A DNA stretch of 15,710 nucleotides from Lysobacterales bacterium (GTDB lineage: Bacteria; Pseudomonadota; Gammaproteobacteria; Xanthomonadales; Rhodanobacteraceae): the NCBI GenBank assembly GCA_013298265.1, contig JAAFHE010000013.1, positions 1 through 15,710 of the forward strand, in the 5' to 3' direction. This document shows, in pieces, positions 2,820 through 15,710 of the stretch. The position numbers were made by a program, and so were the translations under genes. Every line of letters begins with the position of its first letter. The stretch's first letter is position 1. A model generated the notes under the pieces. That model was not told the origin of the DNA and made no database searches. It saw only the letters and a list, made by a program, of their open reading frames with translations.

Positions 2820-3048
2820 CGGGTATTCCAGGCGAGGGCGCCGGTCATGCGGCCCTTGCCGGGGCTGTCGCGAGGCGGGCTGCGCCAGTGACTGCCGGGT
2901 TCAGGCCCTGTGACGCGGCGCGGTCCGAAGGGCAATGACACGCGACGCAGCCTAGGCAGTACGGATTGCGCTTGCGTGACCGTGAGGCTTCAGCGGGAAG
3001 TCAGTCGGGGAGCTGGTTGCAGCCGACGTCAAGCCCCCCGACACAAGG

Positions 3049-3057
3049 TTATGCACA
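3049..3057 (+). promoter_or_regulatory. DnaA-box match TTATGCACA
   Basis: The nonamer TTATGCACA fits the TTATNCACA consensus for DnaA binding exactly. It lies 169 bp from a second perfect match in the same orientation. Function is inferred only from the motif. Confidence 0.45.
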
Positions 3058-3109
3058 GCGCTGAACAGACTCGATCGCAGCGTTCAGCAAAACCGTGAAC
3101 ACGGTCGAG

Positions 3110-3175
3110 GATGTTTTTTAAGTTACTGTTTCAATTAACGTTTACAAAAATCGGGAATCTGATTTTCACGTAACT
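3110..3175. promoter_or_regulatory. AT-rich patch with LacI-type operator-like site, likely control region of the TonB-dependent receptor
   Basis: This stretch is only about 30 % GC in a 65 % GC neighbourhood. Read on the minus strand, TGTAAACGTTAATT (within 3133-3146) resembles one good half plus a degraded half of the AACGTT-centred operators bound by LacI-family repressors. A weak minus-strand promoter (TTGTAA, 16-nt spacer, TAACTT) overlaps it. Operator and promoter are both inferred. The patch could instead be an easily melted element linked to the flanking DnaA boxes. Confidence 0.35.
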
Positions 3176-3217
3176 GAAGCGCAGGAACGGAAACGGCCGT
3201 GCGGCTTGCTCACAAAC

Positions 3218-3226
3218 TTATCCACA
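3218..3226 (+). promoter_or_regulatory. DnaA-box match TTATCCACA
   Basis: TTATCCACA is the strongest known form of the DnaA box, identical to R1 of E. coli oriC. A weaker nonamer, TTGCTCACA (two mismatches), lies just before it at 3206-3214. The AT-rich patch lies between this box and the one at 3049. The site is about 140 bp upstream of the argS promoter, so it could serve transcription control or DnaA titration. Confidence 0.5.
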
Positions 3227-3365
3227 AGCCGGTCAACAGCGCCGAGTTCCGGAATCCGCTCAAGTGCTTGCTGCCGTGTCTTGCCACAGACGCGAGATAG
3301 CGCAGCCAACTCGCCGCCGGTTAACGATTTGTTGCAGCGCGTCAGCCAGCAAACCCGCATCCGGC

Positions 3366-3394
3366 TTGGGCCAGGGACGCGGGCCGACTACAAT
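3366..3394 (+). promoter_or_regulatory. Sigma70-type promoter of argS
   Basis: TTGGGC at 3366-3371 and TACAAT at 3389-3394 are separated by an ideal 17-bp spacer. Transcription should start near 3401, giving a leader of only about 22 nt before the GTG at 3423. The leader is pyrimidine-rich and has no evident Shine-Dalgarno sequence. Confidence 0.7.
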
Positions 3395-3422
3395 CGGCTT
3401 CTTTTCCCGCTCCGGCTCCCCT

Positions 3423-5108
3423 GTGAAAGACTTCCTCCGCGACCAGCTGCTGCAGGCGCTGGCAGCGCTGCAACGCAATGGCAGCGTGCCTGCCGACATC
3501 CCCACCGCCTTCGTCATCGAACGTACGCGCAGCAAGGACCACGGCGATTTCGCCGCGAATGCCGCCCTGCTCATGTCCAAGGCCGCCGGCATGAAACCGC
3601 GTGATCTGGCGCAGGCGCTCGTCGCGGCCCTGCCCGCTTCCTCCCAGGTCGCAAAAGTGGATATTGCAGGCCCGGGATTTATCAACTTCTTCCTGAGCCC
3701 GGCCGCCTATCGCGCCGAAGTGCGCACCATTCTCGCGCTGGGTGCGGCCTGTGGCCGCACTGGCAGCGGCGAAGGCCGGAAGGCCCAGATCGAATTCGTC
3801 TCCGCCAACCCGACTGGCCCGCTGCATGTTGGCCACGGTCGCGGCGCGGCAGTCGGCGACTGCCTCGCGCGGCTGCTGCAGGCAACCGGCTGGGATGTGA
3901 CGCGCGAGTTCTACTACAACGATGCCGGCCAGCAGATCGCCAATCTGGCGCTGTCCACGCAGGCGCGTGCGCGCGGTATTGGCCCCGACGACGCAGGCTG
4001 GCCCGCCGATGGTTATCGCGGCGACTACATCACCGACGTGGCGCAGGCCTACATGGCCGGTGAAACCGTACATGCGGACGGCCAGGACGTGACCGGCGCG
4101 AAGGACCCGGACGATCTCGACGCGCTGCGCCGCTTCGCGGTGGCCGCGCTGCGCCGCGAGCAGGACCTCGACCTGCGCGCGTTCGGCGTCGAGTTCGACG
4201 TCTATTACCTCGAGTCCTCGCTGTATACCGACGGCAAGGTCGAGGAGACGGTCCAGCAGCTCATCGCCGCAGGCCATACCTATGAGCAGGATGGCGCGCT
4301 GTGGCTGCGCACGACCGAGTTCGGCGACGACAAGGACCGCGTCATGCGCAAGGCGCAGGGCGGCTATACCTATTTCCTGCCGGACATCGCTTACCACGTC
4401 ACCAAGTGGCAGCGCGGCTTCGGCCGTGTCATCAACGAGCAGGGCGCGGATCATCATTCGACGGTGATGCGCGTGCGCGCCGGACTGCAGGCGCTGGACA
4501 TCGGCATCCCCAAGGGTTGGCCCGAATACGTGCTGCACCAGATGGTCACGGTGATGCGCGACGGCGAGGAAGTGAAATTGTCCAAGCGCGCCGGCAGCTA
4601 CGTGACGCTGCGCGATCTCATCGACGAGGTCGGCCGCGACGCGACGCGCTGGTTCCTCGCCGCGCGCAAGTCCGATTCGCAGCTGACCTTCGACATCGAC
4701 CTCGCGCGCACGCGCAACCGCGAGAACCCGGTCTATTACGTGCAGTACACCCATGCGCGCATCTGCCGCGTGCGGGAGAAATTCGCCGAGCAGGGCTGGA
4801 CCTGGAACCGCGACAATGGCCTGGCCGCGCTGGAGCGGCTGGATACGGCCTACGATCAGGACATGATGGCCGCGATCGCGCGCTTCCCGGAAATCGTCGA
4901 GATCGCGGCCAGGAACCTCGAGCCGCACCTGGTCGCGACCTACCTGACCGAGCTGGCTGCGGCGTTCCACACCTGGTACGACAACAGCCACATCCTGGTC
5001 GAGGACGCCGATCTGCGCGATGCGCGCTTTGCCCTCGCGGAAGCGGCACGCAGCGTGGTCGCCAACGGACTGGATCTGCTGGGCGTCAGTGCGCCGGAAA
5101 GCATGTGA
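3423..5108 (+). CDS. argS: Arginyl-tRNA synthetase (class I)
   Basis: ArgS charges tRNA-Arg with arginine using ATP in the cytoplasm. The protein has 561 residues from a GTG start, close to the usual 560-580. The frame stays open upstream to an ATG at 3264, but homology-like sequence begins at [16 protein letters not shown]. The GTG also sits just after a good promoter, and the longer start would lie upstream of that promoter. Residues 1-90 are the Arg-specific N-terminal domain ending in [13 protein letters not shown]. The HIGH-type signature is HVGH at 135-138 within [15 protein letters not shown]. The KMSKS-type loop is KLSKR at 385-389. The C-terminal part (about 440-561) is the DALR anticodon-binding domain. 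A SPOR-domain gene follows 14 nt downstream and is probably co-transcribed. No truncation or frameshift is seen. Confidence 0.98.
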
Positions 5109-5122
5109 GCAAGGAATAGACG

Positions 5123-5761
5123 ATGGCAGGCAAGCGCAAACAGGCAACCCGCAACGGTACGGCGACCCCGGCCTGGCCGGCCTGGGTATGGCTGGCGCTC
5201 GGCGTGTTGCTGGGCCTGGGTTTTGCGACCCTGATGCTGCTGCAGGGTTGGGCGCCGACCTTGCGCAAACCGAACTCGCCGCAGCCCAATCCGCAGGCCA
5301 CCGCGCCCAAGGCCAGCGAAACCGCGGTCGCCGACGAGGCGAAGAAGGCGGGCGCGAAGAAGAACTACGAGTTCTATTCGGTACTGCCCGAAATGGAAGT
5401 CGTGATACCGGACACTGAGCTCAGCGCGAAGGCGCGCGCCGAGCAGCAGCGCCAGCAGGCCGCGGCGCAGAACCCGGCGACCGCCGGCACGCCGCCGCCG
5501 GAACCCGCGGTCGCTGCGACGGGCGCGCGCTACGTGCTACAGGCCGGCTCCTATCCCGATCCCAAGGCGGCCGAGGAGCTCAAGGCCAGGCTCGCCCTGT
5601 CGGGATTCGTCGCGCGCGTGCAGTCGGTCAACGTGAACGGCAAGACCTGGCACCGCGTGCGCGTCGGCCCGTACAGCAGCGCCAGCGATGTCGAGACGGC
5701 CAAGGCCGGCCTGTCCGAAGCCGGTGTCAACGCGATCGCCCTGAAGGATGTCGGCGAGTAA
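5123..5761 (+). CDS. SPOR-domain membrane protein (FtsN-like)
   Basis: The product is 212 aa with a basic cytoplasmic N-terminus, one membrane segment at about 20-42, and a low-complexity periplasmic linker rich in Ala, Gln and Pro (about 50-134). A C-terminal SPOR domain spans about 136-210 (ARYVLQAGSYPDPKAAEEL through VRVGPYSSASDVETAK). NYEFYSVLPEMEV at about 81-93 is the short motif often seen after the membrane anchor in FtsN-like proteins. SPOR domains bind denuded glycan strands of septal peptidoglycan, so the protein probably works at the division septum. The layout matches FtsN, but other SPOR proteins share it, so I give no symbol. The ATG is preceded by AAGGAA, a good ribosome-binding site. 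Its position 14 nt after argS suggests one operon. Confidence 0.88.
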   Translation: MAGKRKQATRNGTATPAWPAWVWLALGVLLGLGFATLMLLQGWAPTLRKPNSPQPNPQATAPKASETAVADEAKKAGAKKNYEFYSVLPEMEVVIPDTELSAKARAEQQRQQAAAQNPATAGTPPPEPAVAATGARYVLQAGSYPDPKAAEELKARLALSGFVARVQSVNVNGKTWHRVRVGPYSSASDVETAKAGLSEAGVNAIALKDVGE

Positions 5762-5786
5762 CCGAATTCAGCGCAAAGGAGTGAGC

Positions 5787-5818
5787 AGTGAGAGAGAGCA
5801 ATAACGCTGTCTCTTACT
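5787..5818 (+). terminator. Possible terminator hairpin after the argS/SPOR pair
   Basis: AGTGAGAGAGAGC (5787-5799) and GCTGTCTCTTACT (5806-5818) form a 13-bp stem with one mismatch and one G-U pair around a 6-nt loop, 25 nt after the stop codon. No U tract follows, so it may instead be an mRNA-protecting structure. Confidence 0.35.
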
Positions 5819-5888
5819 CCTTACACCGCAGCAACCGATGGCATTTTCGCCCTTGGGCCGACCAACAGATCTCCACAACCCTGGCCAA

Positions 5889-5946
5889 CGCTGCGCGTTG
5901 GCCGCCCCCTTAACTTAAGGGGGCTCCAAGATCCAACGCGGCAGCG
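5889..5946. repeat. Nested palindromic REP-like unit 1
   Basis: An outer stem pairs CGCTGCGCGTTGG (5889-5901) with CCAACGCGGCAGCG (5933-5946), giving 13 bp with a single 1-nt bulge. It encloses a perfect inner palindrome with 10-bp arms, GCCCCCTTAA-C-TTAAGGGGGC (5904-5924). An alternative 9-bp hairpin GGCCAACGC-TGC-GCGTTGGCC (5883-5903) competes for the left arm. The nested symmetry and the convergent-gap location are typical of REP/BIME or MITE-type intergenic repeats. It could also terminate transcription from both sides, but no U tract is present. Whether it is repeated elsewhere cannot be seen here. Confidence 0.6.
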
Positions 5947-5998
5947 GCGCTATGGCGAAGAATGTCGCTTTTGACAAGTTCCACGCTACTAAGACGGG

Positions 5999-6043
5999 CC
6001 AGCCACTAAACACTCCCCTTCAAGGGGAGGGTTTAGTGGCTGG
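5999..6043. repeat. Long near-perfect inverted repeat, REP-like unit 2
   Basis: CCAGCCACTAAAC (5999-6011) pairs with GTTTAGTGGCTGG (6031-6043). After one A/G mismatch the stem continues with CTCCCCTT (6013-6020) and AAGGGGAG (6022-6029) around a single central C. This gives about 21 paired positions in 45 nt. The CCCCTT/AAGGGG core matches the core of unit 1, suggesting that both belong to one composite element. Confidence 0.6.
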
Positions 6044-6150
6044 GGATGGTGTAAGCGTCGCTCCATGAGATAGCAACGCAAGTTCTGGGCAGTTACTGAC
6101 CGAGCACTTCGCCGAATGATCTCAAGTCTCCTCGCCGCTGACCGCCGCAC

Positions 6151-7647
6151 TTACCACTTGTAGCGGACGGTATAGGTGATCTTGGCTTCGCCGTCGGCGG
6201 GGATGTCGAGGGGGAAGTCGATGGTGTTGGCGTCGCGTTTGACGAAGTCGCGGTTTTTCGCGGTGACGGTCCAGCCGCTCCAGCGGTAGAGGTATTCGCG
6301 GGCGATCACGCGGGCGGCGGTTTTCTTGCGGTTGCGCACGGTGACTTCGACGCTCTCGTCGATGGTCTTGGCGGTGGTGTCGACGGAGAAACTGACCTGC
6401 TTGCGCTCGCCGACCACATCGAAGGCAGTACCCAGTTTGATGCGCAGGGTCTCGTTGCGCGGGGTGTGCTTGATGACGTCCTCGCCGATGAATTCCAGCG
6501 TGCCGTCGACGGAGGCCTGGTTCACGCGGACGCGGCCGGCGGGCAGCGGCATGCCGAGCCTGTTCGCTTCCTTGTTGTCGAACTCGAGGAAGGCGCCGAC
6601 CGTACCTTCACTGGTCGCGCCGTAGCCCTGGTCCTGGATCGGCGACGACCAATAAGCCCAGGGCTGCGGCGAGGCCGTGAATACGAGCTGCTTGGTGCAG
6701 CCGGCCTTGCTTGCGGTCGGGAACAGTTCGAGCTGCTTGGTCGAGTTGTCCGGCAGATCGCTGCGCCGGCCCAGTGTATACAAGTGGTACTCGAACAATG
6801 AGGATTCCTGGAATCCTTCATCCAGGGTCGAGGCCTCGGCGACCATGGTCTTCATCTGCATGCGCATCGCCGGCTGCGGCGGCGCCGGCGCGCGATTGAC
6901 CTCGCCCGCGACGAGCTTGAGCTGCGCCTGCGGGTAGCTCGCACCCGACTGGTTGACGATGGTGACCCAGGCCGACAGGTCCATGTCGCAGCCGCCGTCG
7001 TTCTCGCGCAGTGTGATGTTGTAGTCCGACCACCAGGTCATGCCCTGGGTCTGGTAGCTCACGCGTGTGTCGTGCGTACCCGCCTGCTTGGCGTTGACGA
7101 GCCAGACCAGGGTCGGCCGCGTGATCAGGCCGCCCGGAAGACTAGGGAACAGCACGTTGCTGTAGCTGTTGATGCTGACGACTTCGCCGCTGTCGCGCTG
7201 CAGGATCAGCGTGCCGGCGGCGGCCGAGAGCAGTACGCCGCTGAGGCGCTCCAGCGTATCGCCGCGTTGCTGCTCCACGGTGATGGTGGCGCCGACGTAG
7301 CGCTCGAGCAGCTTGTCGCGGCTGACGAGGTCGAACTGGTAGTTCTGTTCGACCACGCGCGTGCCGGCAGGGTCGGTCAGCGATTCGAACGCGACCGTGG
7401 TCGGGTCGATGCGCGTGGCGACGTCGGTGAAGCGAAGCACGCCACTGCCGGCCTGCAGGGTCATCTTGCGTCCGTCGCGGACCAGCGCGTAGCCCGGCAG
7501 CGCATTGCCGAAGTTGGCGAGGCTTTCGGTGCTGACCTGACCGGGTTGCGCTGAACTGTAGACAGTCAGGGAATAGTCGGGCGTATCGGCGGCGAGGGCG
7601 GCGGTAGTCATTGCGGCGGCGATTCCTGTGACGAGCAACGTACGCAT
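6151..7647 (-). CDS. Exported DUF4139 domain protein
   Basis: The product is 498 aa. Residues 1-20 are a signal peptide ending in AALAA/D, so it should be exported to the periplasm or beyond. The DUF4139 region covers about 180-498, with GMTWWSDYNITL near 202-213, YTLGRRSDLPDNSTKQLELF near 290-309, and a C-terminal immunoglobulin-like portion ending DGEAKITYTVRYKW. Only two cysteines stand out (220 and 317), which could form a disulfide. DUF4139 proteins of the MuiA (mucoidy inhibitor) group carry an N-terminal DUF4140 plus a coiled coil. Here residues 21-180 show no coiled coil, so this is a shorter member of unknown function. The ATG at 7645-7647 has GGAA upstream. rmuC ends 140 nt upstream on the same strand, so read-through is possible. 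I see no convincing own promoter. Confidence 0.88.
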   Translation of the reverse strand: MRTLLVTGIAAAMTTAALAADTPDYSLTVYSSAQPGQVSTESLANFGNALPGYALVRDGRKMTLQAGSGVLRFTDVATRIDPTTVAFESLTDPAGTRVVEQNYQFDLVSRDKLLERYVGATITVEQQRGDTLERLSGVLLSAAAGTLILQRDSGEVVSINSYSNVLFPSLPGGLITRPTLVWLVNAKQAGTHDTRVSYQTQGMTWWSDYNITLRENDGGCDMDLSAWVTIVNQSGASYPQAQLKLVAGEVNRAPAPPQPAMRMQMKTMVAEASTLDEGFQESSLFEYHLYTLGRRSDLPDNSTKQLELFPTASKAGCTKQLVFTASPQPWAYWSSPIQDQGYGATSEGTVGAFLEFDNKEANRLGMPLPAGRVRVNQASVDGTLEFIGEDVIKHTPRNETLRIKLGTAFDVVGERKQVSFSVDTTAKTIDESVEVTVRNRKKTAARVIAREYLYRWSGWTVTAKNRDFVKRDANTIDFPLDIPADGEAKITYTVRYKW

Positions 7648-7787
7648 GGCGATTCCGGGATGGTGAGAGAGGCGTCGAACGGCAGCTTGGACTGCGCGGG
7701 GTTAGGCCGGAGTGGAGGCGGTTCCATCAACGGCGACGCACAGTGGCCGTGGTACACCGGCCATGGCATCAGCGCTCGTATACGGCC

Positions 7788-9224
7788 TCATTCGTCGTCT
7801 CCGACGCCAAGGCCGTCCTCGCCGAGCAGGCCCTGGCTCTGCTCGCCGCTCAGCGACTCGACGCTGCGCAGCTTGCGCTCGATCGCGCGTGAGCGCACGC
7901 CGGCGGCGTCGATGCTGTTGCGCACGCTGTCGAGCTGGTTGCGCGTGCGCTCCAGCACCGTGCCGAACTTGCCGAACTCGGTCTTGACCGCGCCGAGCAG
8001 CAGCCAGACTTCACTGGAGCGCTTCTCGATCGCAAGCGTGCGAAAGCCCATCTGCAAGCTGTTGAGCGTCGCGCTCAGCGTGGTCGGTCCGGTCACGACG
8101 ACGCGCAGGTCGCGCTGCAGCGCCTCGAACAATCCGGGGCGGCGTATGACTTCGGCGAAAAGCCCCTCGGTGGGCAGGAACATGATCGCGAATTCCGTCG
8201 TCGACGGTACGGAAATATACTTGTCGCGAATGCTACGCGCGGCCTCGCGCACGCGGCGCTCCAGCGCGTTGCCGGCGACGGTGGCGGCCTCGGCGTCGGC
8301 GCGTTCCTGCGCGTCGAGCAGGCGCTCATAGTCTTCGCGCGGGAACTTTGCGTCGATCGGCAGCCAGACCGGCGTATCGGCGCTGCTGCCGGGCAGGCGT
8401 ATCGCGTATTCGACACGCTCCGTGGAGCCCGGCACCGTGGCCACGTTGCGCGCGTACTGATCGCCGGTCAGCAGTTGTTCGAGCAGCGCGGCGAGCTGCA
8501 CCTCGCCGAGCATGCCACGCGTCTTGACGTTGCTGAGCACACGTTTGAGGTCGCCGACGCCCTGCGCCAGGCCCTGCATCTCGCCGAGGCCGCGATGGAC
8601 CTGCTCGAGACGCTCCGATACCAGCTTGAACGATTCGCCGAGACGGGTTTCGAGCGTTGCATGCAGTTTTTCATCGACCGTGACACGCATGGCTTCTAGC
8701 TGCTTTGCATTGTCCGCCTGCAGCTCCTTGAGGCGCGTTTCGAGTGTGCTGCGCACTTCGGCCAGGCGCTGCTGGCTATGTTCGCCCTGCTCCAGCAGGC
8801 CCTGGCGCAGCAGGTCGCCGAAGCGGCTCAGCGCCTGCGCACCTTCTTCACGGGCCTTGCGCGCGTCGTCCTGCAAGGTCAGGCGCAGTGCGTCCAGGCG
8901 CTGCTCGTTGCGCTGGCCGGTCTGCTCCAGGCGCAGACCGAAATCCTCGATGCGCTGATGCTGCAGCTGCGCCAGTTGCGCGAACTGGCCCTGCACACTG
9001 TCGCGTAGCTGGTCCTGGCGCACCGATTGCTCGCCGCGGCCGGCGCGCTGTTCATCGCGCAAGGTGCGCTCCAGGCGTTCGTTGTCGTCGCGCAGGTCGC
9101 CCAGCATCTGGCGCAGCGGGGCCAGCATGTCGGTGCGGCCATGGCGCAGGATCAGCAGCTGCAGGATCAGCAGCAGCACCAGCGCCAGCACCGCGACGAG
9201 AACCAGGATTTCGAGCAGCGACAT
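7788..9224 (-). CDS. rmuC: DNA recombination protein RmuC
   Basis: RmuC is a membrane-anchored PD-(D/E)XK-nuclease-like protein that limits DNA rearrangement at short inverted repeats in E. coli. From the ATG at 9222-9224 it has 478 aa, very close to E. coli RmuC (475). The frame extends upstream to 9383, but that extension reads through a perfect terminator stem, while MSLLEILVLVAVLALVLLLI gives the expected N-terminal membrane helix (about 4-26). A long Gln/Arg/Glu-rich coiled coil follows (about 35-220). The RmuC domain spans about 225-440: KTRGMLGEVQLAALLEQLL, LPIDAKFPREDYERLL at about 288-303, YISVPSTTEFAIMFLPTEGL at about 336-355, and GPTTLSATLNSLQ. The tail is acidic. A TACACT -10-like hexamer sits at 9253-9258 with a poor -35, so expression may depend partly on read-through of the upstream terminator. 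Confidence 0.95.
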   Translation of the reverse strand: MSLLEILVLVAVLALVLLLILQLLILRHGRTDMLAPLRQMLGDLRDDNERLERTLRDEQRAGRGEQSVRQDQLRDSVQGQFAQLAQLQHQRIEDFGLRLEQTGQRNEQRLDALRLTLQDDARKAREEGAQALSRFGDLLRQGLLEQGEHSQQRLAEVRSTLETRLKELQADNAKQLEAMRVTVDEKLHATLETRLGESFKLVSERLEQVHRGLGEMQGLAQGVGDLKRVLSNVKTRGMLGEVQLAALLEQLLTGDQYARNVATVPGSTERVEYAIRLPGSSADTPVWLPIDAKFPREDYERLLDAQERADAEAATVAGNALERRVREAARSIRDKYISVPSTTEFAIMFLPTEGLFAEVIRRPGLFEALQRDLRVVVTGPTTLSATLNSLQMGFRTLAIEKRSSEVWLLLGAVKTEFGKFGTVLERTRNQLDSVRNSIDAAGVRSRAIERKLRSVESLSGEQSQGLLGEDGLGVGDDE

Positions 9225-9284
9225 GGGCGGCAGGCAGACGGGAACGGCGCCCAGTGTAGCGGCTGGCATCGCTGCGCAGCGCGC

Positions 9285-9320
9285 AAAAAAACAGCGGCGG
9301 TTCTCGCGAACCGCCGCTGT
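9285..9320 (-). terminator. Intrinsic terminator upstream of rmuC
   Basis: Read on the minus strand, ACAGCGGCGGTTC and GAACCGCCGCTGT form a perfect 13-bp stem around the loop GCGA, followed directly by a run of seven T. It is the strongest terminator in the window and ends 61 nt before the rmuC start codon. Confidence 0.9.
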
Positions 9321-9457
9321 CCCCATGCACCGTGTTGCTTTACCCCAGACCTTGTACTGCAGGTCACAACCATAGCCGCTCACGGCGACCCCACGCCGTC
9401 CGGCTTACCGGATCATGAAGCGGCATAAGCCCCCGCATGACCTTCGGCACTCCCTGT
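9285..9457 (-). ncRNA. Candidate structured RNA (sRNA or rmuC leader/attenuator)
   Basis: On the minus strand a promoter (9463-9491) predicts a start near 9457, and a strong intrinsic terminator ends at 9285, giving a transcript of about 173 nt. AGGTCA (9438-9443) pairs with TGACCT (9361-9366), enclosing an internal loop and a second stem GCCGCT/AGCGGC (9419-9424 with 9375-9380). That stem closes a three-way junction with two abutting hairpins: CCGG-TAAG-CCGG (9400-9411) and ACGGCG-TGGGGT-CGCCGT (9382-9399). TGACCT can instead pair with AGGTC at 9348-9352. The terminator's 5' arm also contains AGCGGC, which could pair with GCCGCT. A 24-codon frame starting at 9438 has a poorly spaced GAAGG and is probably incidental. 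It is not a tRNA, and I do not recognise it as 6S, SRP or tmRNA. Confidence 0.55.
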
Positions 9458-9462
9458 GGCTG

Positions 9463-9491
9463 AACGTAGTAAAAACGTTAAGCCGCGTCAA
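9463..9491 (-). promoter_or_regulatory. Sigma70-type promoter for the candidate RNA
   Basis: On the minus strand TTGACG (9486-9491) is followed by a 17-bp spacer and TACGTT (9463-9468). The -35 matches the consensus at five of six positions, while the -10 is moderate. An interrupted inverted repeat ACGTT/AACGT (9475-9479, 9490-9494) spans the -35 element and might be an operator. Confidence 0.55.
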
Positions 9492-9614
9492 CGTGCAGTG
9501 CAGCGAAACGCGGCCCGGTCTGGGAGCAGGCGCGACCGGGACGGTCGACGTTCGCCCACGGTTTGCGCCATCGCAACGCATCGAGTGAAGCCGCCGGAGG
9601 GTTGGGATCCCGAG

Positions 9615-9645
9615 CCGCGGGCAGCAGTCACCCGACTGCCCGCGG
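9615..9645 (-). terminator. GC-rich hairpin after glyS, possible terminator
   Basis: CCGCGGGCAG and CTGCCCGCGG form a perfect 10-bp stem about 20 nt past the glyS stop. An alternative inner pairing CAGTC-GGGT-GACTG is possible. No U tract follows on either strand, so it may slow decay or act with Rho rather than terminate by itself. Confidence 0.4.
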
Positions 9646-9664
9646 TCGTTGCAAGGCCGGTCTC

Positions 9665-11806
9665 TCAGCCGGCTGGCTGCAGCACGGAGATGTCGGCGAC
9701 CTGCAGGAACTGCTGGCGCAGCTCGCGCAGCAGCCGCAGCCGGTTCGCGCGTACCGCCGGGTCGTCGGCCATGACCATGACGTCCGTGAAGAACGCATCG
9801 ACCGGGCCGCGCAGCTCGCCGAGTCGCTGCAGCAGCGTCACGTAGTCGCGCTGCTGCGCCGCCTGCGTCGTGACTAGTTTTGCCGCGACCAGCGCGCCGT
9901 ACAGATCGGTTTCCGCGCCGTCACCGAGCAGGTTCGCATCGATCGCCCCGCCGTCCGCATCACCGGCCTGGCGCAGGATGTTGGCGATACGCTTGTTGGC
10001 CGCGGCCAGCGCCTCGGCTTCGGGCAAACGGGCGAAGGCGTCCACGGCACGCACGCGTGCGTCGAAATCGCCAAGATCATCCGGGTTCAAAGCCCGCACC
10101 GCTTCGAAGCGGTCAGCGGCTATGCCCGCGTCGGTGTAGTAGCCGCGCAGCCGGTCGACGATGAAATCAAGGATGTCGGCGGCCAGTTCGCGCCGGCGCG
10201 CGCCAGCATCCAGCGCCGGTGCCTTGCCGTCCTTGCCCTTGGGCAGCCCCGCAGCGAGCGCGCCGTCAGGCAGTTGCGCCAGGGCTTCGGCCAGCAGCGG
10301 TGGCAGTTCCAGCGCGAGGCCGCTTTCGATCAGCGTGCGGGCGAGTCCAAGCGCGGCGCGGCGCAGCGCGAACGGATCCTTGTTGCCGCTGGGCTTGAGG
10401 CCGACTGCGAAGATGCCGCACAGCGTGTCGATGCGTTCGGCGATCGCGAGCACCTGGCCGACCGGTCCGCTCGCGATGCCGTCGCCGGCGAAACGCGGCC
10501 GGTAGAACTCGTCCACCGCCCGCGCGACATCGGCGGGTTCGCCGTTGGCGCTCGCGTAGTAGCGGCCCATGACGCCCTGCAGCTCGGGGAACTCGCCGAC
10601 CATGCGCGTCATGAGATCGCATTTGGCCAGCGCGGCCGCACGCGTCACCTGTGCCGCGTCGACGCCGACGCGGTTGGCGATGGTACGGGCGAGTTCGGCG
10701 ACGCGGATCACCTTGTCCCAGACCGAGCCCAGCGCCTGCTGGTAGGTCACGCCCTTGAGGGTTTCGAGCTGGTCGATCAGCGGCGACTTGAGGTCTTCGT
10801 CAAAGAAAAAACGCGCATCGGCGAAGCGCGGCCGGATCACGCGTTCGTTGCCCTTGCGGATTTCGCCGGGATCCTTGCTGGCGATGTTCGCCACGCCGAT
10901 GAAATGCCGCGTGAGACGGCCGTCAGCGTCGACCACGGAGACGAATTTCTGGTTGGTCTCCATCGTCATGACCAGCGCTTCCTGCGGCACGCGCAGGAAA
11001 TCCTCCTCGAACGCGCAGGCAATCGCGACCGGCCACTCGGTCAGGTTGGCGATTTCGTCGAGCAACTCGTCGCCGAGCTGCGTACGTCCGCCGGTCTCGG
11101 CGGCGGCGCGCGCGATTTCGGCGCGGATGCGTTCGCGTCGTTCGACCGGATCGGCGAGGACGTGCGCCTCGCGCAGGCTGGCCAGCCAACTGTCCGCATC
11201 AGCGATCGACACCGCCTGGTTGTGATGGAAGCGATGGCCGCGCGATTCGCGGCCGCTGACGAGTCCCATCAATTTCGCATCAATGACCTGGTCGCCGTGC
11301 AGGATCACGAGCCAGTGCACCGGCCGCACGAAGGCATAGTCGTGATCGCCCCAGCGCATCGGCTTGGGAATCGGCAACGCTTTGAGCGCATCTACGATGA
11401 TTTCCGGCAGCAGTGCGGCCAACGGCTGGCCCGCCTGCTCGCTGCGGAAAACATACCAGGCACCCTTGTCAGTCTCGAGTTTCTGTAGCTGCTCGACCGT
11501 CGTGCCGCAGGACGCGGCGAAGCCGGCCAGCGCCTTGCTCGGCTGACCATCGCTGCCGAAGGCAGCGGCAGCGGCGGGGCCACGGCGTTCGATAGTCTGA
11601 TCGGGCTGGGCTTGCGCAACGGATGGCAGCCGCACGGCAAGGCGGCGCGGCGTGCAATATGCGGCGGCGGCATCGGCTGGGATCGCAAAGCCGCGCTTGT
11701 TGAGTCCATCCAGGATGCCGGCAGCGAAGGCGTTGGCAAGTTCGTCGATCGTGCGCGTTGGCAGTTCTTCGGTACCGATTTCGATAAGCAGCGCCTGCTC
11801 AGCCAT
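9665..11806 (-). CDS. glyS: Glycyl-tRNA synthetase beta subunit
   Basis: GlyS is the tRNA-binding subunit of the bacterial alpha2beta2 glycyl-tRNA synthetase. The product is 713 aa, slightly longer than E. coli GlyS (689). It opens with [20 protein letters not shown], the characteristic N-terminus of the family. Family features continue with [13 protein letters not shown] near 160, [20 protein letters not shown], and the HD-like region containing [20 protein letters not shown] and [13 protein letters not shown]. An Ala-rich C-terminal DALR-type anticodon-binding region ends [20 protein letters not shown]. The ATG lies inside the end of glyQ (8-nt overlap), with AGGAG about 10 nt upstream, so the two subunits are translationally coupled. 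This fits equimolar assembly. I see no disruption. Confidence 0.98.
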
Positions 11807-12716
11807 GGGCCTTCTCCTGGCGATTCTTCAGTCCGGGAAAGCCGAGCTTCTCGCGCTGCGCGAAATACGCCTCGGCCACGCCGCGGGCCAGCGTACGCAC
11901 CCGCAGGATGTAGCGCTGGCGTTCGGTCACGCTGATCGCGCGGCGCGCGTCGAGCAGGTTGAAACTGTGCGAGGCCTTGCACACCTGTTCGTAGGCCGGC
12001 AGCGGCAGTTTTGCCGCGATGAGCTTTTTCGCCTCGGACTCGCAGACGTCGAACCAATGCAGCAGCTCAGTAACGTTCGCGTGTTCGAAGTTGTATGTGG
12101 ATTGTTCCACTTCGTTCTGGTGGAACACGTCGCCGTAGGTGACCACGCCGTGCGGCGCGACGGTCCAGACCAGGTCATAGACGTTGTCGACGTTCTGCAG
12201 ATACATCGCCAGGCGCTCCAGGCCATAGGTGATTTCACCCGTGACCGGACGGCATTCGATACCGCCGGCCTGCTGGAAATAGGTGAACTGGGTCACTTCC
12301 ATGCCATTGAGCCAGACTTCCCAGCCCAGGCCCCAGGCGCCGAGCGTCGGCGATTCCCAGTTGTCCTCGACGAAGCGCAGGTCGTGGGTCAGCGGGTCGA
12401 GTCCGAGCGCACGCAGCGAGCCGATATACAAGTCCAGAATGTTGTCCGGGTTCGGTTTGAGCACGACCTGGTATTGGTAGTAGTGCTGCAGGCGATTCGG
12501 GTTTTCGCCGTAGCGGCCGTCGGTAGGCCGGCGCGACGGCTGCACGTACGCCGCAGCCCAGGGCTCGGGGCCGAGCGCACGCAGGAAGGTGGCCGGATGG
12601 AACGTGCCGGCGCCGACTTCGGTGTCGAACGGCTGGATCAGTACGCAGCCCTGTTCCGCCCAATAGCGGTTGAGGGTCTGTATCACGTCCTGGAACGTGG
12701 GCGTCGGCGTAGACAT
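11799..12716 (-). CDS. glyQ: Glycyl-tRNA synthetase alpha subunit
   Basis: GlyQ is the catalytic class II subunit that activates glycine with ATP. From the ATG at 12714-12716 the protein is 305 aa (E. coli GlyQ has 303). The frame stays open far upstream, but family sequence begins at [20 protein letters not shown], and a longer start would run into the divergent gene. Diagnostic blocks are [20 protein letters not shown] at about 40-59, [20 protein letters not shown] at about 61-80, [19 protein letters not shown] at about 131-149, and class II motif 3 in [14 protein letters not shown] at about 161-174. It overlaps glyS by 8 nt. A divergent ATPase gene starts 73 bp away, so the two share a compact promoter region. 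Confidence 0.98.
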
Positions 12717-12752
12717 GGTGTGGCTCACGAAAGGGCTACGGCAAAGCGCGCT

Positions 12753-12758
12753 AGTATA
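12753..12758 (-). promoter_or_regulatory. -10 element of the glyQS promoter
   Basis: TATACT on the minus strand sits 37 nt before the glyQ ATG, so the transcript would start near 12746. There is no good -35 at 16-18 bp (CTGTGG at 17 bp is weak). The plus strand of the same nearly symmetrical CTAGTATAG could serve the divergent ATPase gene, but less convincingly. Confidence 0.5.
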
Positions 12759-12789
12759 GCCAGCGCTCCGCCGTCCCACAGGAATCGCC

Positions 12790-14634
12790 ATGGCCACCAA
12801 CCCGCAGCGCCCCGTCGCGGCCAATGCTCCGGCGCCCACCGCCGCGAGCACGCCGGTCAAGCTGGGCCTGCACGGAAGGCTGGAGCTCGACGAAACCCTG
12901 ATGGCGCTGGTGCAGGATGGCCTGCTCGCCGCCGAGGACGCGCGCCGCATCCGCGCCGACTCGCGCAGCACCAAGGACAAGCTCGCCCTGCACCCGCTGG
13001 TCCTCGTGGCCAATCTCAAGCCGATCGACCAGCGCAATCCCGGCAAGCCGCTGGGCCTGGAGCTGCTCACGCAATGGCTGGCGGAAAAGTCCGACCTGCC
13101 GTATCTGCGTATCGATCCGATGAAGATCGACGTCAAGGCGGTGACCCAGGTCATCTCGCACCAGTACGCGACGCGCTATCGCATCCTTCCGGTCGCGGTC
13201 GCGCCGGAGAAGGTCACGATCGCCTCGGCTGAACCCTTCGACGCACGCTGGGTCAACGACCTCGGGCACATCCTGCGTCGCGAGATCGTGCGGGTCGTAT
13301 CGAGCCCGCTCGACGTCAACCGTTACCTTGCCGAGTTCTTCGGCGTACAGCGCTCGATCCAGCGCGCCAAGGACGCCAAGGGCGACAGCGGCTACGACCC
13401 GTCGACACTGCTGAACTTCGAGCAGCTGCTGGAGCTCGGCAAATCCGGGGACATCGGCGCGGACGACCGCCATGTCGTGCACATCGTCGACTGGCTGCTG
13501 CAATACGCCTTCGATCAGCGCGCCTCGGACATTCATCTGGAGCCGCGACGCGAAGCGGGCAACATCCGCTTTCGCATCGACGGCAACATGCTCAAGGTGT
13601 TCGAATTTCCCCCGCCGGTAATGACGGCGGTGACCGCGCGCATCAAGATCCTCGGTCGCATGGATCTTGCGGAAAAGCGCCGGCCGCAGGACGGGCGCAT
13701 CAAGACGCGTTCGCCGGGCGGGCGCGAAGTCGAGCTGCGCCTGTCGACGATGCCGACGGCTTTCGGCGAAAAGATCGTCATGCGCATCTTCGACCCGGAC
13801 ATCGTGGTCAAGGAGTTTCGCCAGATCGGGTTCTCCATGGATGAGGAAAACCTCTGGCGCTCGATGGTCGAGCGGCCGCACGGCATCGTGCTGGTGACCG
13901 GTCCCACCGGCTCGGGCAAGACGACGACGCTGTATTCGACGCTGAAGCATCTGGCCACGCCGGATCTCAACGTCTGCACGGTGGAAGACCCGATTGAAAT
14001 GGTCAGCCCCGAGTTCAACCAGATGCAGGTGCAGCCGGCCATCGACCTGGATTTCGCCGCGGGCGTACGTACGCTGCTGCGCCAGGATCCGGACATCATC
14101 ATGGTCGGCGAAATCCGCGACCTCGAGACCGCGCAGATGGCCGTGCAGGCGTCACTGACGGGTCACCTGGTGCTGTCGACGCTGCACACCAACGACGCGC
14201 CGACAGCCGTCACGCGACTCCTTGATCTAGGCGTTCCGCATTACCTGATCCAGTCGACCTTGACCGGCGTCGTGGCGCAACGCCTAGTCCGCACGCTTTG
14301 TCCACACTGCAAGACGGCACTGCCGGTGGAGCCGCGCGCATGGGACGCTCTGACGCACCGCTGGAACCTGGCGTTGCCCGAGCGCACGCAGGGGCCGGTC
14401 GGCTGCCTCGAATGCCGCAATACCGGGTTCCTTGGCCGCACCGGCATCTATGAGATGTTGCGCATCACCACCAAGCTGCGCCAGCTGATCCAGGCCGATA
14501 CCGACCTGGTCAAGTTCGGCGAGGCGGCGCTGAGCGATGGCATGCGGCCGCTGCGCATATCCGCCGCGGCCCAGGTCGCCCGCGGCGTGACGACCGTGGC
14601 CGAGGTCATGACGGTATTGCCTCCGATCGAGTAG
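12790..14634 (+). CDS. GspE/PilB-family type II secretion / type IV pilus ATPase
   Basis: These hexameric cytoplasmic ATPases power pseudopilus or pilus assembly. The product is 614 aa, longer than E. coli GspE (about 490) or PilB (about 566). An N-terminal T2SSE-type domain covers about 60-185. A linker leads to the first part of the motor ([20 protein letters not shown] at about 238-257). The P-loop is GPTGSGKTT at 371-379. Asp-box residues lie around TVEDPIEM (about 397-404), Walker B in [12 protein letters not shown] (433-444), and the His box in [16 protein letters not shown] (about 458-473). Two CxxC pairs (504/507 and 539/542) form the zinc-binding tetracysteine typical of GspE. All key residues are present. 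No other secretion or pilin gene is in the window, so which machine it serves is open. A weak AGGA precedes the ATG. Confidence 0.93.
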
Positions 14635-14638
14635 CGGC

Positions 14639-15364
14639 GTGGATCGACTCCTCATCCTTCAGACCGGCACGACCTTGCCGCGGCTCGCGGCGCGGCGTGG
14701 CGACTTTGCCGCGTGGTTCATCCGGGCCGTGGGCCTGCGGCGCAGCGACGTCGATACCGTGCGCGTGGATCGCGGCGAAGCGTTGCCATCGGCTGGACGC
14801 TTTGCTGCGGTTCTCGTGACCGGCTCGGCGAGCATGGTGACCGAGCGCGCCGACTGGAGCGAACGCACCGCCGCGTGGCTTGCCTTGGCAGCGCGAAGCA
14901 ATGCCGTGCCGGTACTCGGCATCTGCTACGGCCATCAGTTGCTGGCGCACGGCCTGGGCGGCCGGGTGGACTGGAATCCCCTGGGGCGGCAGATCGGCAC
15001 TCAGTCGCTGCAGACGGCTGCGCAGGCGACGACCGATCCGCTGTTCGCCGCAGTGGCTCCCGGGTTCCGTGCGCAGACCACTCACCAGCAATCCGTCATC
15101 GAGGCACCGCCTGGTGCACAGGTACTGGCGAGCTCGTCACTCGACCCGCATCAGGCGCTGCGTTTCGGCGAGCGGGCCTGGGGGCTTCAATTCCATCCGG
15201 AGTTCAGTGCGGGAATCATGGCGGGCTATATCCGTGGCCGACGCGAGCGCCTTGTCAGTGAAGGGCTGGATCCGGCACGGCTACTGCGCGAATGCGGCCC
15301 GACGCCGCAGGCGCGCTGGCTGCTTCGGAGTTTCGTGCGGCTGGCGCGGGTTGGCGGCCTGTGA
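14639..15364 (+). CDS. Class I glutamine amidotransferase domain protein (GMP synthase-like)
   Basis: The product is a 241-aa stand-alone class I (GATase1) glutaminase domain. The nucleophile elbow is GICYGHQL with Cys96, and the rest of the triad is His186 and Glu188 in LQFHPEF, so the enzyme should be active. It starts with GTG 4 nt after the ATPase stop codon and has no clear ribosome-binding site, suggesting translational coupling. The N-terminal LLILQTGTTLP supports this start. Family members include free-standing gamma-glutamyl hydrolase-like and GMP-synthase-like proteins. The acceptor of the released ammonia is unknown, as no synthetase partner lies here. The pairing with a secretion ATPase is unexplained. 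Confidence 0.88.
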   Translation: MDRLLILQTGTTLPRLAARRGDFAAWFIRAVGLRRSDVDTVRVDRGEALPSAGRFAAVLVTGSASMVTERADWSERTAAWLALAARSNAVPVLGICYGHQLLAHGLGGRVDWNPLGRQIGTQSLQTAAQATTDPLFAAVAPGFRAQTTHQQSVIEAPPGAQVLASSSLDPHQALRFGERAWGLQFHPEFSAGIMAGYIRGRRERLVSEGLDPARLLRECGPTPQARWLLRSFVRLARVGGL

Positions 15365-15370
15365 GCTTCA

Positions 15371-15388
15371 TCGTCGCGGCTGCGACGA
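15371..15388 (+). terminator. Hairpin just after the amidotransferase gene
   Basis: TCGTCGC-GGCT-GCGACGA is a perfect 7-bp stem with a tetraloop, 6 nt past the stop codon. It has no U tract, so its role as a terminator is uncertain. Confidence 0.35.
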
Positions 15389-15487
15389 GTAGAAATGTGC
15401 GCTGGTCGACTTTGGTCGAAGGTTCCGGGCGAGAGATCTTCCAAACTTGCGCGAGTCGTTACCTGGATTCGTCAGCGTTGCAAAAGC

Positions 15488-15512
15488 AAACGCCGCGCAG
15501 TGCGCGGCGTTT
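15488..15512. terminator. Strong hairpin between convergent genes, likely bidirectional terminator
   Basis: AAACGCCGCGC and GCGCGGCGTTT form a perfect 11-bp stem around a 3-nt loop. Read on the minus strand it is followed by GTTTGCTTTTG, a reasonable U-rich tail for the gene ending at 15561. On the plus strand only TTT follows. Confidence 0.7.
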
Positions 15513-15560
15513 GGATGTCTTGCGGATCGGGCCTTGCTGGCCGCAGAAACGCAGAGAGCA

Positions 15561-15710
15561 TTACTTGCGGCCCTTGCCGCCCTTGCGCAGACCAGCCAGC
15601 GGATCCGGCAGCTTCAGGCCGCCCAGATAGTCGTTGATGGCTTCGTTGGTCACATCGTACAGCGGGCGGCCCATCACGGCTGCTGCTGCCTTGAGGCTGT
15701 CGCGCATGCG
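15561..15710 (-). CDS. C-terminal end of an unrecognised protein (5' part outside window)
   Basis: On the minus strand 49 codons are open from the window edge to a TAA at 15561-15563. The visible end includes RPLYDVTNEAINDYLGGLKL, LPDPLAGLRKG, and a basic tail GGKGRK. I do not recognise the family. Good codon structure for a GC-rich gene, a mixed hydrophobic/charged composition, and the terminator hairpin 48 nt beyond the stop support a real gene. It converges with the amidotransferase gene. Confidence 0.75.
   Translation of the reverse strand, partial: RMRDSLKAAAAVMGRPLYDVTNEAINDYLGGLKLPDPLAGLRKGGKGRK

Follow-up and report, generated by a model that had tools for sequence, protein, structure and literature searches.

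A small RNA gene conserved in Tahibacter, very probably related to TonB-dependent-receptor leaders, and a possible antagonist of sX13

Introduction

What is the RNA that appears to be encoded on the minus strand between glyS and rmuC in a Lysobacterales bacterium, and on what might it act? The stretch of DNA analysed here (the window) comprises 15,710 nucleotides (GenBank assembly GCA_013298265.1, contig JAAFHE010000013.1, positions 1 to 15,710). A preliminary description of the window, made from the letters alone, had read a promoter, a terminator and, between them, a structured RNA of about 173 nt that it could assign to no known family. The present analysis compares the locus with related genomes, revises the fold, traces the relation of the RNA to the leaders of TonB-dependent-receptor genes and considers the C-rich small RNA sX13 as a possible partner.

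The locus and its transcription signals

The region contains the following features.

9665–11806, minus strand: glyS, the upstream neighbour (Pfam PF02092, E 8.9e-197)
9463–9491, minus strand: promoter read from the sequence, TTGACG at 9491–9486, a 17-nt spacer and TACGTT at 9468–9463
9285–9457, minus strand: RNA of about 172–173 nt (covariance model R1 match at 9286–9457, 84 bits)
9285–9320, minus strand: intrinsic terminator, a perfect 13-bp stem 9320–9308/9303–9291 with a GCGA loop
7788–9224, minus strand: rmuC (Pfam RmuC PF02646, E 1.1e-73; ATG at 9224)

Transcription would be expected to start near 9457. The T-run of the terminator consists of seven T (9291–9285), the first of which lies within the stem, and the end of the U-tract is separated from the rmuC ATG by 60 nt. 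Both signals named in the preliminary description (TTGACG-17-TACGTT and the perfect 13-bp terminator) are present and conserved. The pattern TTGAC-N18-TACGTTCNNCNNNNGGGAG, and likewise TTGAC-N18-TACGTTC...GGGAG with G007 among its carriers, occurs without mismatch in seven of the eight Tahibacter genomes and its reversed control in none of the eight; the stem-loop sequence of the terminator is kept in seven orthologues, with a weak U-tract in G004 and G007. Consensus scanners list no promoter and no terminator in the region, and TACGTT agrees with TATAAT at three of six positions (counted by hand); since promoter and terminator are both conserved, this miss is taken as a limit of the scanners.

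Reading frames within the RNA differ or shift between orthologues and none is conserved; a small protein was rejected on account of these frame shifts. The GTG extension of rmuC to 9383 in the list of open reading frames is an open frame that runs through the RNA. No Rfam 15 family reaches its gathering score in the window, and the six weak matches within 9200–9670 all have E ≥ 0.94, in agreement with the earlier failure to name a family. With the Xanthomonadaceae sRNA Xoo2 (RF02241) the alignment is limited to the terminator-bearing 3′ part; its score of 13.9 bits (gathering score 45; E 3.8) is taken as chance. Judged from sequence, the locus combines a promoter of its own, an intrinsic terminator and a conserved non-coding RNA, as a conserved intergenic sRNA gene would.

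Several other features of the window were recorded in passing. A TACACT element at 9253–9258 (minus strand), between the terminator and rmuC, is also found in G001, G002, G003, G005 and G006 and is a possible separate rmuC promoter. A long GC-rich inverted repeat, CCGCGGGCAG...CTGCCCGCGG, lies without a T-run at about 9612–9643 (minus strand) just 3′ of glyS and possibly marks the end of the glyS mRNA. The intergenic region 5760–6150 contains short inverted repeats such as CCCCTTCAAGGGG, and another TonB-dependent-receptor-like gene, recognised by eye and open at the window edge, occupies 3–2819 on the minus strand; it is not the leader-related receptor discussed below.

Conserved blocks and predicted fold

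Conservation in the alignment is concentrated in the promoter, GGGAGUGCCGAA.GUCA, GGUCUGGGGU, GGUGC-UGGGGA and the terminator stem, with G004 and G007 deviating in several of these blocks. The elements of the RNA body are listed here together with their complements in sX13.

9438–9456, minus strand: 5′ block CAGGGAGTGCCGAAGGTCA, from the alignment; its AGGGAG is the complement of CUCCCU, sX13 loop 1
9406–9449, minus strand: hairpin P1, UGCCG..GGUCAUG/CAUGAUC..CGGUA, which competes with a long-range GUGCCG/CGGUGC pairing
9382–9399, minus strand: hairpin P2, ACGGCG-UGGGGU-CGCCGU, with the loop GGGG at 9392–9389
9342–9352, minus strand: AGGUCUGGGGU, the complement of sX13 ACCCCAGACCU
9320–9325, minus strand: UGGGGA before the terminator, conserved; the complement of UCCCCA, sX13 loop 2

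The whole RNA is predicted to fold more stably than every one of 200 dinucleotide-shuffled sequences (z −4.8); most of this stability resides in the terminator, and the segment 9330–9457 alone reaches z −1.9, with four of 200 shuffles as good. In the full RNA, P1 forms locally with a probability of about 0.25 and gives way to the long-range pairing with about 0.74 (helices 1 and 2, whose pairs were counted in seven orthologues), and P2 has a pairing probability of 0.90–0.99 in the predicted ensemble of the window RNA. The body had earlier been drawn as a long-range stem AGGTCA/TGACCT leading to a junction closed by GCCGCT/AGCGGC. This junction has to be given up: forcing both helices costs 6.5 kcal/mol (−77.9 vs −84.4), their ensemble probability is about 1e-4, and the 3′ partners sit in an insertion exclusive to the window's copy. 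Among the eight other copies, TGACCT occurs in none and AGGTCA in three, and GCCGCT and AGCGGC are missing from their first 100–110 nt. Hairpin P2 (9399–9382) with its GGGG loop replaces the junction, and covarying pairs were found in it.

MAFFT did not align the isolated hairpin well, and the pairs of P2 were therefore counted from seven sequences aligned on GGGG, leaving out G002 and G005 (bulged stem) as well as G015 and G001 (no GGGG loop). GGGG is constant and the stem differs; at positions −2 to −5 all seven sequences have standard pairs, of three or four types per position. The model-fitted alignment of seven orthologues, which leans towards structure, has changes on both sides in 9 of 10 P2 pairs, and all five whole-structure measures from this same alignment exceed 500 of 500 shuffles as well as slid versions; the counts for helix 4 were ignored, as the stored structure places it out of register with the terminator. 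How often a GGGG-hairpin arises by chance in a single sequence varies widely, from none of 500 shuffles (G003A, the diverged first copy of G003, and G139) through 7, 11, 14, 22 and 40 (G005, G002, G007, G006 and G003) to 96 for the window and 193 for G004; G001 has lost the hairpin. The number of GGGG runs as such is not above that of shuffles (5 in the window versus 3.8, reached by 164/500). Taken together, comparison of the sequences shows the predicted GGGG-loop hairpin P2 to be maintained by compensatory change.

Distribution

The preliminary description had suggested a search of related genomes, and homologues were found in all eight genomes of Tahibacter (Rhodanobacteraceae, Lysobacterales), the genus to which the window belongs (G000–G007, G000 being the window's own), in a decayed form in G001. 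For the promoter-plus-GGGAG pattern, G001 has a two-mismatch copy at another locus, G003 a second copy with one mismatch and G007 (C17) one further two-mismatch match. By blastn the region is detected in six of the eight genus genomes, with 74–76% DNA identity over 206–251 nt in G002, G003, G005 and G006; over 61 genomes, seven have a match, that in G022 being merely a 34-nt match to the terminator end. Covariance model R1 matches 12 of the 61 genomes, six of them genuinely (G000, G002–G006), and misses G007. The matches in G014, G016, G018, G025, G029 and G054 and the second matches in G000 and G004 were judged to be chance on inspection of six of the eight loci (all except L061 and L065) on the plus strand only, the wrong strand for two of them; the inspected loci have coding-like sequence or none of the conserved blocks.

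In the GTDB species set the exact pattern occurs in four stretches, from three Tahibacter species (T. caeni, T. harae and T. aquaticus) and one MAG (SCN 69-320). A looser promoter-plus-GUGCCGAAGGU pattern matches seven of 230 family genomes, namely four Tahibacter, the G139 leader described below, G142 and G184, the last two judged to be chance. The reversed control also matches seven genomes, so that outside the genus the G139 match is credible solely by its position before the receptor gene. The only relatives found outside Tahibacter among these 230 genomes are the diverged leaders of receptor genes in two of them, G015 and G139. In the open-access literature searched, no paper names Tahibacter with a small RNA, and a search on Lysobacter and receptor leaders returned nothing on the element. 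The comparisons thus make it very probable that a structured RNA is real and, as far as seen, restricted to the genus; it is new in the sense that the open-access literature searched holds no earlier description of it.

Relation to TonB-dependent-receptor leaders

The gene order around the element differs within the genus. The window, G002, G005 and G006 have glyS, the RNA and rmuC in this order; G003 (T. aquaticus) has glyS, a diverged copy A (G003A), a receptor gene, copy B and rmuC; G004 and G007 have glyS, the element and the receptor gene, with no rmuC within the 1.3–1.4 kb examined; and in G001 the 155-nt gap between glyS and rmuC lacks the element, which precedes the receptor gene at another locus. 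The element thus lies directly upstream of, and in the same direction as, a TonB-dependent-receptor gene in G001, G003 copy A, G004 and G007 and, in diverged form, in G015 and G139, and in the window, G002, G005, G006 and G003 copy B it is a stand-alone element ahead of rmuC. A leader of rmuC was rejected, since some copies occur without rmuC (G001, G004, G007 and G003 copy A). Naming the RNA by its position between glyS and rmuC missed its relation to the receptor leader; its conservation across the genus, also where the flanking genes differ, supports the RNA of about 173 nt at the level of sequence.

The receptor, which we take to be Oar-like, has CarboxypepD_reg and Plug domains over the cut-off (Plug in G001) and a barrel below the curated cut-off, and NCBIfam assigns no family. 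No receptor match at E ≤ 1e-30 was found in G000 (the window's genome, an assembly that is 88% complete), G002 or G005, and G006 has just paralogues of 46% and 53% identity at this threshold; promoter, RNA and terminator are intact in the genomes without the receptor. Outside Tahibacter, two of 230 genomes (G015 and G139) have the receptor at E ≤ 1e-70, both with an RNA-like leader, and that of G015 ends in a GGGGAC-terminator 58 nt ahead of the ATG of the receptor. In G004 the receptor gene that follows the leader (L079/L066, C1:697539–698249) appears to be broken, its matched stretch being interrupted by an in-frame stop.

Local alignment from promoter to P1, compared with shuffles, gives leader similarities to the RNA of z 14.6 for G003A and 8.5 for G001 and, in other genera, 8.2 for G015 and 6.5 for G139. 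Eight leaders of receptor paralogues range from z −0.8 to 4.7, two of them also beating 100/100 shuffles. A second covariance model (R2), built from seven other copies without G003A, G001, G015 and G139, recovers G003A with 25.4 bits (E 1.7e-5) and G001 with 17.5 bits (E 0.0019), and scores G015 at 7.3 bits (E 0.86) and G139 at 8.5 bits (E 0.42), below the 15.9 bits of a stray, terminator-like match in L017. The low R2 scores, the stray match and the two paralogue leaders that beat all shuffles make the ancestry of the G015 and G139 leaders less sure. The G139 leader has a predicted 11-bp stem that presents GGGG. Other receptor paralogues were rejected as carriers, their leaders being without the element; this holds even for two (in G007 and G004) that qualify as receptors at E ≤ 1e-70. 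On this evidence, the RNA is very probably related to TonB-dependent-receptor leaders.

sX13 as a possible partner

The GGGG loops led us to consider as a partner sX13, an sRNA with C-rich loops. The sX13 study PMC3771888 describes sX13 as acting through its C-rich loops, with 4G motifs often carried by repressed targets, and reports that one TonB-dependent-receptor mRNA fell rather than rose in Xanthomonas without sX13. The genera listed there are Xanthomonas, Xylella, Stenotrophomonas and Pseudoxanthomonas (PMC3771888), and sX13 model matches in 26 genomes reach beyond them. In total, 33 of 34 family genomes searched have an sX13 (RF02232) match, 12 of them over the gathering score: seven of the eight Tahibacter genomes (three over the gathering score, the remainder at 42.5–49.5 bits against a gathering score of 50) and all 26 other family genomes (nine over it). 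One of 14 control genomes has a match below the cut-off. The sX13 match adjoins polA in all seven genus genomes in which polA was found, three of these matches being over the gathering score; in the window's genome neither sX13 nor polA was found. The predicted folds of Tahibacter sX13 have three C-rich loops, in G005 CCCUCCCU, CCUCCCCA and CUCCCCU, and much the same in the others. G001, the genome with the most decayed G-rich element, carries two copies of sX13, separated by about 3.6 kb (C4:38808–38922 and 42552–42665; L102 and L096), both over the gathering score. The open-access literature searched contained no sX13 antagonist.

In five genomes, the GGUCUGGGGU block of the RNA is perfectly complementary to sX13 ACCCCAGACC over 10–11 nt: 11 nt in the window (measured against the sX13 of G006 as a stand-in), G002 and G005, and 10 nt in G006 and G003. 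In the order window, G002, G005, G006 and G003, this length is reached by 1, 1, 1, 14 and 19 of 500 RNA shuffles, by 3, 3, 0, 5 and 2 of 500 sX13 shuffles, by 15, 59, 67, 205 and 203 of 5746 genomic windows (0.3–3.6%) and by 4, 23, 29, 48 and 49 of 737 C-rich windows (0.5–6.6%); taken in the opposite direction, the genomic windows with an equally long complement to sX13 number 21/5702, 8/5724, 9/5714, 43/5726 and 32/5736. Together, the length controls put the chance level at 0–7%. It is important to point out that the five strong cases come from close relatives and are not independent. No unusual complement was found in G004 (8 nt), G007 (7), G003A (6), G015 (6) and G001 (6, or 8 with its second sX13 copy). 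In G004 the 8-nt complement is kept by a single change in the RNA that is matched by one in sX13 (CCUGGGGU with ACCCCAGG); alone, it is not significant (216/500). The ribosome-binding region of the G139 receptor holds a 10-nt complement of the sX13 of that genome, a figure without a control.

Energy-based measures give a mixed picture. The gain from co-folding the RNA body with sX13 (each genome's own, and that of G006 for the window) lies above the shuffle mean in 7/7, with 2, 7, 2, 7, 22, 1 and 19 of 100 shuffles as good for the window, G002, G005, G006, G003, G004 and G007; for plain duplex energy the corresponding counts are 11, 27, 17, 44, 26, 59 and 64 of 200. When the best site is weighted by accessibility, G003A alone stands out (2/60 shuffles as good), the others giving 14 (window), 22 (G002), 11 (G005), 21 (G006), 24 (G003), 10 (G004), 10 (G007) and 30 (G001) of 60. 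In predicted folds, the sX13 site ACCCCAGACC is half unpaired, ACCCC being free and AGACC lying at the base of the 3′ hairpin, and the GGGG of AGGUCUGGGGU is mostly paired in the window RNA (mean unpaired 0.19). The evidence for an RNA–RNA partnership with sX13 is thus suggestive only.

Proposed function and alternative explanations

We tentatively propose that the RNA is derived from a receptor leader and acts on sX13 as a sponge or antagonist, a reading that is possible and falls short of probable. The small RNA gene would derive from the 5′ leader of a TonB-dependent-receptor gene or have a common origin with it; where that gene is missing, as in the window and some of its relatives, the RNA would act alone in trans. 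Its G-rich elements (AGGGAG, the GGGG loop, AGGUCUGGGGU and UGGGGA) would pair with sX13 in its C-rich loops and linker and so titrate or destabilise it, and elements of a similar kind in the leader form would turn the receptor mRNA into a target of sX13. The fuller history, in which an sX13-targeted receptor leader turned, after gene loss or move, into a free-standing RNA that soaks up sX13, with both forms in G003 (T. aquaticus), is unlikely as a complete account.

All the conservation evidence would hold equally for an ordinary trans-acting sRNA that is not specially tied to sX13 and uses its G-rich or 5′ elements on mRNAs or a protein, the complementarity to sX13 being just moderately beyond chance; this somewhat unlikely reading has to contend with conserved blocks that include sX13-complementary stretches and with a co-fold gain that is favourable in 7/7. 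Titration of CsrA/RsmA, considered for the GGA-like motifs, was dropped by reasoning, since the constant loop is GGGG. A different role would be that of a cis-acting leader, attenuator- or riboswitch-like, whose terminator controls read-through into the receptor gene and which in the window now stands before rmuC. The GGGGAC-terminator close before the G015 receptor ATG, the same terminator hairpin ahead of the receptor in G004 and G007 and the competition between local and long-range P1 pairings fit such a leader; against it, the U-tracts of the terminators in G004 and G007 are poor, five copies have rmuC downstream, the predicted folds tie no antiterminator to the terminator stem, and TACACT before rmuC is kept even in G001, where the RNA is absent, so that rmuC may have a promoter of its own. 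We regard cis control as clearly unlikely.

That the element is just what is left of a lost receptor leader, a relic in decay that no longer has a function, is very improbable: the failure to find the receptor in the window's 88% complete assembly, in G002 and in G005, and the decay seen in G001 and G003A, are what a relic would leave, whereas promoter, blocks and terminator are kept without the receptor, DNA identity stays at the level given above in G002, G003, G005 and G006, and the changes in the P2 stem are compensatory. Palindromes arising by chance in GC-rich DNA, with no RNA at all, would account for the scanners that list neither promoter nor terminator and for a body fold of just z −1.9, but hardly for sequence and structure that are conserved across the genus, also where the receptor gene lies at a different locus; we give this explanation next to no credence.

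Comparison with known systems and outlook

The RNA proposed here as a candidate sX13 antagonist can be set beside several known systems. Like sX13 itself (RF02232, Xanthomonadaceae), it is predicted to be a stand-alone sRNA with a terminator and hairpins with homopolymeric loops, in the same bacterial order; sX13, however, presents CCCC and follows polA, whereas the element presents GGGG and lies after glyS or before the receptor gene, and the window has no match to the RF02232 model. Attenuator and riboswitch leaders share with the receptor form of G015 a promoter, structure and a terminator a few tens of nucleotides before a transport-related gene; unlike them, the window has no Rfam match, and its form of the element has no receptor gene downstream. 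Antagonists or sponges of sRNAs named in PMC8687705 include the chbBC decoy of ChiX, SprY, which acts on RNAIII, and CJnc180, which acts on CJnc190; they resemble the proposed case in that an RNA, sometimes derived from an mRNA, counteracts another sRNA (PMC8687705). The antagonism here, by comparison, is predicted, and the RNA, whose gene is separate from that of sX13, is related to a receptor leader.

The RNA is specific to the genus, carries a conserved complement of the widespread sX13 and is a testable candidate antagonist. If the proposal is true, it would be the first natural sX13 antagonist known to us, occurring in G003 (T. aquaticus) both as leader and as sponge. The locus, with its leader, its leader plus orphan copy and its orphan, offers a natural series on how mRNA leaders may become trans-acting RNAs.
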